From Clostridiales bacterium (GTDB lineage: Bacteria > Bacillota > Clostridia > Monoglobales > Monoglobaceae), in contig JAHZIG010000027.1 of assembly GCA_019419865.1 (NCBI GenBank), positions 1 through 38,740 on the forward strand: a stretch of DNA of 38,740 bases, read 5' to 3'. The notes beneath the pieces were generated by a model, which saw nothing but the letters and a program-made list of their open reading frames with translations, did no database searches and was not told the origin of the DNA. This document shows positions 36,328-38,740 of the stretch, piece by piece. Made by a program: the position numbers and the translations under genes. Each line of letters opens with the position of its first letter. Position 1 is the stretch's first letter.

Positions 36328-36471
36328 GAACTGCGAGTTCTGCGGGAGCTGCGAGCTCTGCGCGAACTGCGAGTTCTGCGAGAGCTGCGAGCTCTGCGTG
36401 AATTGCGAGCTCTGCGTGAATTGCGAGCTCTGCGTGAATTGCGAGTTCTGCGGGAACTGCGAGTTCCGCAG
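36328..36471. repeat. Eight tandem 18-bp repeats, each with a palindromic core
   Basis: Eight contiguous units of the type GAACTGCGAGTTCTGCGG. Units 1-4 alternate strictly GAACT..AGTTC and GAGCT..AGCTC, so both arms of the inner inverted repeat change together; units 5-7 carry GAATT with AGCTC or AGTTC; unit 8 returns to GAACT..AGTTC with two changes in the tail. Partial units flank the array. It fills most of the 236-base gap between the ATPase (stop at 36511) and the metallopeptidase (start at 36274). Confidence 0.9.
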
Positions 36472-36510: not shown

Positions 36511-37947
36511 TTACAAACGTTTAGCGGGCTGCGCGTCGTCGCCAAACTCCGGCAGATACGGCGCGATAGCCGATATTATTTTTTCTCTCGCGCCGATGTC
36601 GTTCTTCAGCAGATTGATCACCCGCTTAGGATAATCGCCTCCGCCAAGCCCGAACTTTGAGCCTATCCTCTTGCTCAGATCCTTATAGTTAAATATCCTG
36701 AGGACGTCGTCTATGGTTTTCGCGTCCGAATAGAGCCGTTTTTTGGATTCAAACAGCGAGCGTATCTTTTCCTCGGAAAATTCGCTGTATATGTATTCCT
36801 CGACGTCCTTCGAGCCGAGTTTTCCGTCTATGAAATTGATCTTGCCGATCTTCTTGTTAAGCTCTATCTTAAACGCCTCCGCCGCCTGTTTCAGGATCTC
36901 GCCGCCGTAGATACTGCGTATCAGATCCTCGGCGTTTGCCAGCGCGTCGCTTTCGCAGCCGAGCTGGATCTGCATGATCCTAAGCAGTTCCGGGACTAAA
37001 AACAGGTTTTCTACCTCGGCTACTTTTATACAAAACACTCCGTCTTCGCTTAGCTCCAATATCTCCGCGTCGCTTCTGAAATCGCGGTCTATCACTCCGT
37101 ATATCTCCATATTTTCGAATAGGCCGCGCCGTTTTTTAGCCCGCATTATCTTCATGACCTGCTGACACCCGCCGCAGGGGATCACGCTAAAGCCTCTGTC
37201 GCCGTATATTTCCGAGTAGAGCATATAGTCCAAGCTCTCCTTCGTCCCTTCGGACAAAATGAATTTTCCGTTTCCGCCAAGTATCTCGTAGAGCGCGGAT
37301 TTATCGAATTCAGGGTAATCGTCCGTATTTATGAATTCGTATTCCCAGCGTTCGTTTCCGTTTTTGTCCACCGAATACGATCCGACTTTGAGCGCCGCCG
37401 ACGAATTTCTTGAAACGGCGAAGTCCATATCGTGGGTTATATAGATAAACGCCGCGTCCGATCTCAGCGCCTCGAGCCTGTCCCACAGCTTGGAGCAGAC
37501 GCTTCGCCGCATATGCAGCTCCGGCTCGTCCGCTATCAAAACCGATTCGGGCTTTAAAACGAGCGTCTTATACGCATAAAATACCATGGCCTTTTCGCCG
37601 TCGCTGAGGCGGTTTAGCGGATACAAGACCTCGGCGCCGCCGGATACGTCCGAAACGCATACTGATCCGGAGTCAAAAACCAGCTTTTTGTTTATTAGTA
37701 TCCTCGACAATATAGCGTTCAGTCCGGATACGAGCGCCCTTATCTCCATATCGTCGCGCGCCGAACCAAGTTCGCGGTTTAGGTCGAAATTTTGCGCGTC
37801 GTATCCCGAAACGACGGCGACTGCGTCTTTGTTTAAATCGCATATCTCCAGACAGAGTTTGGTCTTGCCGGATCCGTTAGCGCCCAGAACTATCAGCGGC
37901 TGCGACGGATCGAGATCTGCGGTTCCGTTTGGAAAGTTTATCTTCAT
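36511..37947 (-). CDS. ABC-type ATPase fused to a DUF4435 (TOPRIM-like) domain, OLD/PARIS-like
   Basis: A 478-residue fusion. Residues 1-190 form an ABC/SMC-like ATPase: Walker A GANGSGKT (22-29), signature LSDGE (114-118), Walker B VLIADEPELHM (Glu141) and switch YITHD (His172). There is no coiled-coil insertion. Residues ~225-330 fit DUF4435: FILSEGTKE (Glu233), VIDRD (Asp287, Asp289) and VAEVENLFLVPE, the pattern of a TOPRIM metal site. The last ~150 residues are helical. The same pair of domains occurs in OLD-like nucleases and, fused or as AriA plus AriB, in the PARIS anti-phage system. A strong promoter and a structured leader lie upstream. Anti-phage function is inference. Confidence 0.82.
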   Translation of the reverse strand: MKINFPNGTADLDPSQPLIVLGANGSGKTKLCLEICDLNKDAVAVVSGYDAQNFDLNRELGSARDDMEIRALVSGLNAILSRILINKKLVFDSGSVCVSDVSGGAEVLYPLNRLSDGEKAMVFYAYKTLVLKPESVLIADEPELHMRRSVCSKLWDRLEALRSDAAFIYITHDMDFAVSRNSSAALKVGSYSVDKNGNERWEYEFINTDDYPEFDKSALYEILGGNGKFILSEGTKESLDYMLYSEIYGDRGFSVIPCGGCQQVMKIMRAKKRRGLFENMEIYGVIDRDFRSDAEILELSEDGVFCIKVAEVENLFLVPELLRIMQIQLGCESDALANAEDLIRSIYGGEILKQAAEAFKIELNKKIGKINFIDGKLGSKDVEEYIYSEFSEEKIRSLFESKKRLYSDAKTIDDVLRIFNYKDLSKRIGSKFGLGGGDYPKRVINLLKNDIGAREKIISAIAPYLPEFGDDAQPAKRL

Positions 37948-37987
37948 TTTATCACATCCGTGCGTCGGTAATTTTCTTTCGTTTCAA

Positions 37988-38059
37988 AAGCCGTTTCCGT
38001 TAGCCCGCCTAAATCGCCGAAGGCTTATAAAAACGCGGCGCACCGGCTTAAAACGGCTT
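37988..38059 (-). promoter_or_regulatory. Structured leader of the ATPase-DUF4435 gene
   Basis: AAGCCGTTT (37988-37996) and AAACGGCTT (38051-38059) form a perfect 9-bp inverted repeat with 54 bases between. Both lie inside the ~140-base leader expected from the promoter at 38097-38125. Confidence 0.5.
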
Positions 38060-38096: not shown

Positions 38097-38125
38097 AATA
38101 TACCAAAAAACAGGCGTGGAGTCAA
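38097..38125 (-). promoter_or_regulatory. Promoter of the ATPase-DUF4435 gene
   Basis: Read on the minus strand: TTGACT (38125-38120), 17-base spacer, TATATT (38102-38097), with TG one base before the -10. The first two T of the -35 are the last bases of the repeat element that starts at 38124. Confidence 0.7.
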
Positions 38126-38306
38126 CGTAGAGATTAGGGATTAGCGATTAGCGAATAGGGAGTGAAATTTGATTGTTTAACGTCGAACGCTTAAGTCGGC
38201 GGAATGGAATACTATGTTTTCCTATGCGGCTACAGACGCCGTTTTTACGGCTACAGAAGCGCTTTGGACTCCTATTCGCTAATCTCTAATCTCTAATCGC
38301 TACGTT
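38124..38306. repeat. ~180-bp element with heptad terminal inverted repeats, copy B
   Basis: The left end is AACGTAGAGATTAGGG with TTAGCGA heptads. The right end is CTATTCG then three CTAATCN heptads and CTACGTT, its near-perfect reverse complement over ~40 bases. The interior shares TACTATGTTTTCCTAT with copy A (TACTCTGTTTTCCTAT). A further heptad block and CTACGTT (38307-38329) repeat the right end. No coding capacity. Confidence 0.8.
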
Positions 38307-38337
38307 CGCTAATCGCTAATCGCTACGTTCGTTTACC

Positions 38338-38347
38338 CCCCCGGGGG
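38338..38347. repeat. CCCCCGGGGG palindrome
   Basis: A perfect 10-bp palindrome within a run of seven C and five G, followed by TATTTTTCC, between the heptad element and the TGGGGAGT cluster. Confidence 0.6.
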
Positions 38348-38410
38348 TATTTTTCCTATTTTTATACTTTTGTTTAAAGTTTTACCTATACGAAATATTA
38401 TCACAAAAAT

Positions 38411-38740
38411 AAAACTCCCCATTATTGGGTAACGTTTTTGCGGGCTTTGCGCCGTTTTAGGGTCAAAAATGGGGAGTTTTGTTTTCTTACACATTATTAC
38501 AAATGCATTAAATGTCCGATTCAAGAGCGACGCGCTTTGTAAAATGGGGAGTTTTTAAGCCGTTATGGGGAGTAAATGGGGAGTCTTTTTTTGAAAATCT
38601 CCCCACGAAGAATAACGTTTTCACGGTATTTTGCGGGCGTTATGGGGAGTTTGGGGAGTTTTTTAAAAATAGTTAACGTAAAAAATAAAAAAGGCTATGT
38701 CACAACAAACAGTTGATAAATAGCCATTTTTATAGGGGAG
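38411..38740. repeat. Cluster of TGGGGAGT boxes in duplicated hairpin modules
   Basis: TGGGGAGT starts at 38470, 38545, 38566, 38577 and 38643; GGGGAGT follows at 38653; inverted ACTCCCCA is at 38414; an inverted variant is at 38598-38605; AGGGGAG is cut by the window end at 38734. Two hairpin modules are related: 38411-38480 (arms AAAACTCCCCAT and ATGGGGAGTTTT) and 38598-38650. Both enclose TAACGTTTT, CGG and a TTTGCG/TTTTGCG core. CGTTATGGGGAGT also recurs at 38561 and 38638. No gene is visible; a 63-residue minus-strand frame across it has no support. Confidence 0.8.
38687..38732. terminator. Two-tier hairpin, probable bidirectional terminator
   Basis: GGCTAT (38693-38698) pairs with ATAGCC (38720-38725); inside, CAAC (38703-38706) pairs with GTTG (38712-38715). 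T-runs follow on both strands, longer on the minus strand, so it may end a gene entering from the right. Confidence 0.6.

Follow-up and report, generated by a model that had tools for sequence, protein, structure and literature searches.

A stretch of 38,740 nucleotides of a Clostridiales bacterium (family Monoglobaceae; contig JAHZIG010000027.1, positions 1 to 38,740), hereafter called the window, carries an intact open reading frame (ORF) with an ATG start at 36511..37947 of the minus strand. Its product of 478 amino acids (aa) was read in an initial annotation as an ATP-binding cassette (ABC) ATPase head joined to a DUF4435 nuclease region, resembling fused PARIS or OLD-like defence proteins. 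The question raised by this locus is whether so compact a protein belongs to PARIS, whose ATPase AriA and nuclease AriB are encoded by two genes or by one fused gene (AriAB), and whether it would still act in defence. The gene is of the fused AriAB type, with an OLD-type ABC ATPase head and a DUF4435/TOPRIM nuclease domain, and it probably encodes a single-chain defence protein of the OLD family, in which an infection-sensing head would control a metal-dependent nuclease. Its novelty lies in a lineage-specific head that lacks most of the helical lobe, combined with a constrained TOPRIM part.

Membership of the fused AriAB family is well supported. The PADLOC profile for fused AriAB (PDLC02982) matched with E = 1e-77, best over residues 76-469, followed by a second AriAB model (4.5e-12), ATPase-Toprim_I-B (1.2e-9), mad3 (3.6e-9), and AriB (4.1e-8). 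In Pfam, DUF4435 scored 33.1 bits against a cut-off of 27 over residues 233-432, and ABC_tran scored 21 bits, under its cut-off of 25. The NCBIfam matches (25 listed of 44 families) were ABC-type models plus one restriction-associated AAA model, all well below cut-off. A search of 5.8 billion proteins, in which just the 7,993 candidates with the most words in common were scored, yielded 481 relatives. The 120 relatives listed were nearly all 534-587 aa long and contained DUF4435, with the ATPase domain mostly annotated; apart from one 92% identical cluster (P0001), they were 34-48% identical over the aligned part. A tree of 52 sequences thinned at 60% identity was built by a quick method under LG+G4, with the Shimodaira-Hasegawa-like approximate likelihood-ratio test (SH-aLRT) as its only support measure; the gene fell inside an 18-sequence clade of fused AriABs (SH-aLRT 100). 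Single-gene ATPase-DUF4435 fusions were already reported as PARIS by Rousset et al. 2022. The available text of that paper (PMC9122126) describes their detection by AAA_15/AAA_21 plus DUF4435 profiles, gives ariAB, as two genes or one fused, in 5.2% of 21,738 genomes, and presents Ocr as a PARIS trigger. The suggestion of a new immune gene holds for the AriAB type of the gene and falls for its novelty, since the family had been published.

The ABC motifs named in the initial annotation were all located and proved invariant or nearly so in an alignment of 97 sequences. Walker A (GANGSGKT, residues 22-29; 37861..37884) is near-invariant. Within the signature LSDGE (residues 114-118; 37594..37608), Ser115 to Glu118 are invariant, as are Asp140 and the catalytic Glu141 of Walker B (residues 136-141; 37525..37542; modelled strand 136-140) and His172 of the H-loop (37432..37434), all on the minus strand. 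Ala51-Gln52 is probably the Q-loop, judging by its motif; in the MAFFT alignment the Q-loop column falls on Tyr49. The TOPRIM-like domain (residues 225-330; 36958..37275, minus strand) contains Glu233, Asp287, Asp289, and the EVEN motif at residues 311-314, within VAEVENLFL at 309-317. Glu233, Asp287, Asp289, Glu311, and Glu313 are invariant in the same alignment. When the protein was aligned with a two-gene AriB of Paraburkholderia (AriB profile E = 5.2e-23; 18% identity to the window protein) and two other sequences, the Glu-Gly of Glu233, both Asp residues of the DxD motif, Glu313, and Pro319 were invariant. The E26A mutant of Escherichia coli AriB does not cut tRNA, according to the available text of PMC12409363, and Glu233 would be the equivalent of E26. 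A helical part (residues 331-470; 36538..36957, minus strand), lying mostly inside the DUF4435 match, forms the C-terminus.

The AlphaFold2 model predicts an ABC head followed, past residue 225, by a domain with the strand and helix order of TOPRIM, in which Glu233 and Asp287/Asp289 would sit at strand ends. ATPase and TOPRIM in one chain is also the layout of class 1 OLD proteins and of Gabija GajA, and Foldseek ranked GajA first for the window protein, over its whole length, and OLD 6p74 first for a full-length relative. AriB was absent among the 50 structural matches listed for each model, which is uninformative because the ABC head took up all of them; two DUF4435-type queries against PDB sequences found no AriB chain. 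The protein might be a DNA nuclease of the OLD/GajA kind, with a TOPRIM domain that cuts phage DNA, and not tRNA, upon an infection signal; the available part of the review PMC10568477 leaves it unresolved whether fused AriAB forms a separate OLD class. We consider this alternative unlikely. The GajA profile matched with E = 0.0011 only, far behind the AriAB profile, the C-terminal part is of the DUF4435 type and the nuclease half matches the AriB profile, and no helicase, GajB included, was found among the scanned neighbours (HIT and YgjP in the window; a 273-aa ORF, polyphosphate kinase (Ppk), and MgtE at the ortholog locus).

What separates the window protein from other fused AriABs is its head. 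It shares with them the single chain of ABC head and DUF4435/TOPRIM domain and the catalytic motifs, but Walker A and the signature are 84 aa apart in this protein and in P0001, against 130-164 aa in the 195 other sequences of a 197-sequence set (top bin 160-164). The shortened region, residues 36-113 (37609..37842, minus strand), is where motif spacing and models place the helical lobe of the relatives. The protein, about 60 residues shorter than usual, is compact because most of the OLD/AriA-type helical lobe is gone. The length of 478 aa was matched solely by P0001 among the 120 relatives listed of 481, as the initial annotation's remark on compactness had suggested; two shorter entries, P0112 (459 aa) and P0117 (366 aa), are without the N-terminal end that carries Walker A. 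The 197-sequence set, for which the 120 listed of the 481 database relatives were eligible, leaves out these two (<470 aa), L062 and L064 (open frame without Walker A), the ortholog (L021), a relative from genome G065 (L002), three duplicates, and six viral loci (L103, L105-L109); an earlier span of 33 for L029 was a false early signature match. A word-based search with the shortened region returned the ortholog cluster as its sole match (75 candidates), although diverged short heads could escape a search that requires shared five-residue words. No description of a lobe-less fused AriAB was found in the literature searched, which did not extend to two Nature 2024 structure papers.

Loss of the lobe could mean lost sensing, in a gene that is decaying or was recently repurposed and no longer serves defence. 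In the ATPase half, 19 of 51 family-conserved positions are altered, the highest count of the 197 sequences together with the ortholog, and 6 of 36 are altered in the nuclease half, one of the six lying after residue 232. The ortholog cluster is nested within full-length relatives on a long stem branch (0.74), and no defence genes were found among the scanned neighbours. Decay is nevertheless improbable. The ORF is intact in two genomes with its catalytic motifs retained, the cluster comprises 30 member sequences, and the promoter hexamers and start region are conserved. The ratio of nonsynonymous to synonymous rates (dN/dS) between the window and its counterpart in Candidatus Roslinia caecavium (contig C5 of genome G001) was 0.144 for the AriAB gene, compared with 0.183 for YgjP, 0.034 for HIT, 0.050 for GH43, and 0.022 for altronate dehydratase; no pair was obtained for tagaturonate reductase. 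The gene is therefore under purifying selection, less strongly so than HIT, GH43, and altronate dehydratase. By region, and over short stretches, the ratio was 0.07 in the TOPRIM part, 0.26 in the shortened head, and 0.19 in the remaining ABC core. The remodelled sensor half with its trimmed lobe may reflect a different trigger or an assembly of simpler build.

The initial annotation had also given the gene its own promoter and leader. A promoter-like TTGACT-17-TATATT, with TG before the second hexamer, lies at 38097..38125 on the minus strand, and the ortholog has the same two hexamers at the same distance. The site is weak by itself because the region holds five promoter-like sites, with 2.9 expected from shuffles. 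An RNA leader was rejected, as Rfam at gathering scores gave no match within the window and the predicted folding of the leader did not surpass that of shuffled sequences (z 0.19 and 0.14). The 54-nt block immediately before the ATG (37948..38001, minus strand) has one mismatch to the ortholog; these 54 nt are near-unchanged while the synonymous sites of the gene differ at 0.28 between the two genomes.

The gene is accessory and patchily distributed. Ca. Roslinia caecavium (94% complete) carries a syntenic ortholog with 91% identity, and among the 100 genomes around it a relative beyond the ABC level occurred only there and in G065, a genome of the same class (37% identity, residues 103-466). 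The best E-values in 18 further genomes ranged from 1.3e-5 to 9.5e-4. The same family is represented by 37 other genomes, and not one of them gave an AriAB-level match (14 at least 90% complete; 23 less than 90% complete or more than 5% contaminated). Together with the position in the tree, this speaks against a housekeeping ATPase kept at the locus. Ca. Roslinia caecavium has one DUF4435 gene and a restriction enzyme that is type IIG-like and accompanied by a specificity-like subunit. Near that enzyme, two ORFs of 576 and 557 aa (L129:1144-4593) match mad3/mad8 ATPase profiles.

The flanking genes are housekeeping-like: HIT and YgjP in the window, and additionally the 273-aa ORF without a Pfam match, Ppk, MgtE, and Veg at the ortholog locus. 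A defence island was rejected, as nothing beyond weak generic matches (HIT to ThsC, 1.5e-7; Ppk to DrmC, 7e-5) appeared among nine ortholog-locus neighbours. The repeat-rich DNA noted beside YgjP was confirmed: the gap between YgjP and AriAB holds a 136-bp tandem array at 36328-36463, made of 18/36-bp units with 88-90% matches. This gap varies in length, from 236 bp in the window to 151 bp in the ortholog. A two-gene defence unit with the downstream YgjP-type metallopeptidase is very improbable: the genes are adjacent on the same strand in both genomes and YgjP matches are few in the family (5 of 38 genomes including Ca. Roslinia caecavium, the other four being pieces at 30-39% identity), but the array and 236 bp separate them in the window, and YgjP occurs in 4 of 90 AriAB loci including the ortholog's, the other three copies lying more than 3 kb from AriAB. 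That count also led us to reject YgjP as a general AriAB partner. On the other side of the gene, the window ceases to resemble Ca. Roslinia caecavium at 38306, within a short repeat. Repeats of 7 bp and 23 bp surround this end point (38128-38740), and a TTTGGGGAG-type repeat lies close to the end of the window; in Ca. Roslinia caecavium, the 273-aa ORF and Ppk come next.

The neighbourhoods of some relatives link fused AriAB to restriction-modification (RM) and to mobile elements. Near ORFs were surveyed at nine relative loci, and profiles were run for the neighbours at L025, L026, L028, L030, L031, L051, and L126. By Pfam, the gene order is hsdM-hsdS-ariAB-hsdR at L028 and hsdS-ariAB-hsdR at L030; by tblastn, hsdR immediately follows ariAB at L024 and L089. 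HsdR matches occurred in 6 of 90 AriAB loci, and type I RM neighbours in 7 of 90 (tblastn, three queries; L061 with HsdM only, 23%), against 0 of 26 control loci, a weak control (84 kb versus 1,216 kb). Type IIG models were matched in part by an upstream 330-aa ORF at L031, and another ATPase, of the AriA/Septu kind, lies close to AriAB at L051. In an integrase-bearing stretch of a conjugative Paraburkholderia plasmid (L126:4868-9143), two-gene PARIS is directly followed by a fused AriAB, with a PDC-S02 nuclease and EAD1/GASH-type genes adjoining. A Tn7-like element (L025:5099-13149) has a fused AriAB (45% identical) flanked by TnsB- and TnsC-like genes, in the unidirectional order TnsA, TnsB, AriAB, TnsC, TnsD; its Tns proteins had no match in the other 89 loci. 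Matching records numbered 53 of 72,556 for plasmids and 2 of 50,697 for phages. Available passages on Salmonella place a two-gene ATPase-DUF4435 pair inside BREX (PMC11341690, PMC9009780), and those of PMC12839542 survey OLD-ABC plus TOPRIM modules as BREX backup effectors.

Several observations weigh against a working PARIS-type protein. The function of lobe-less members is putative, being read from the family. Altered family-conserved columns total 25 of 87, so that sensing may differ or output may be weakened, and the altered count in the nuclease half exceeds the family mean of 1.4. With phmmer, the window protein retrieved mostly ABC/SMC heads from the PDB and no AriA or AriB chain; AriA was reached only with the family profile (E = 0.03). 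The nine scanned neighbours at the ortholog locus include no defence genes, and HSDR_N and PglZ had no match in Ca. Roslinia caecavium. Among relatives, the three scanned neighbours at L026 yielded no more than a single weak match, to mad8, and the genes around AriAB at the annotated plasmid loci L125, L127, and L128 are mixed or metabolic.

How the protein might work is best seen beside two-gene PARIS (PDB 8ux9, 8v46), which shares the ABC ATPase and a DUF4435 nuclease that has a Glu before and another Glu after its DxD motif. There, an AriA hexamer holds at most three AriB, and trigger binding releases AriB, which cuts tRNA (PMC11455837; available text of PMC12409363). The window protein differs in being a single chain whose tethered nuclease is not releasable as a subunit, and AriA, at 464 aa, has a head whose alignment covers residues 4-444 and includes a large insert. 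By analogy, an ATP-bound assembly would keep the nuclease inactive until the head is engaged by a product of the phage; the nuclease halves would pair and cut nucleic acid of the host, with tRNA as the likeliest target, so that infection aborts. Because both halves are tethered, activation would be a rearrangement in place, without AriB release. In tests reported in the available text of PMC11341690, neither Ocr nor Gp5 elicited a response from the PARIS embedded in Salmonella BREX. Evolution in this lineage has trimmed the helical lobe of the head and reshaped the sensor half, with the TOPRIM part under the strongest constraint. More tentatively, the gene may represent a minimal PARIS, a functional lobe-poor AriAB of one gut Clostridia lineage with a different trigger and a TOPRIM domain that fires without subunit release.

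For the fused form, the hsdM-hsdS-ariAB-hsdR and hsdS-ariAB-hsdR operons support PARIS as a guard of restriction systems. The mode of action of single-chain AriAB is an open question in print, in the available part of PMC10568477. With its lobe-less head and constrained TOPRIM part, the gene amounts to a natural deletion experiment, and this lobe-less member would allow a test of which head parts serve phage sensing and which serve assembly building.
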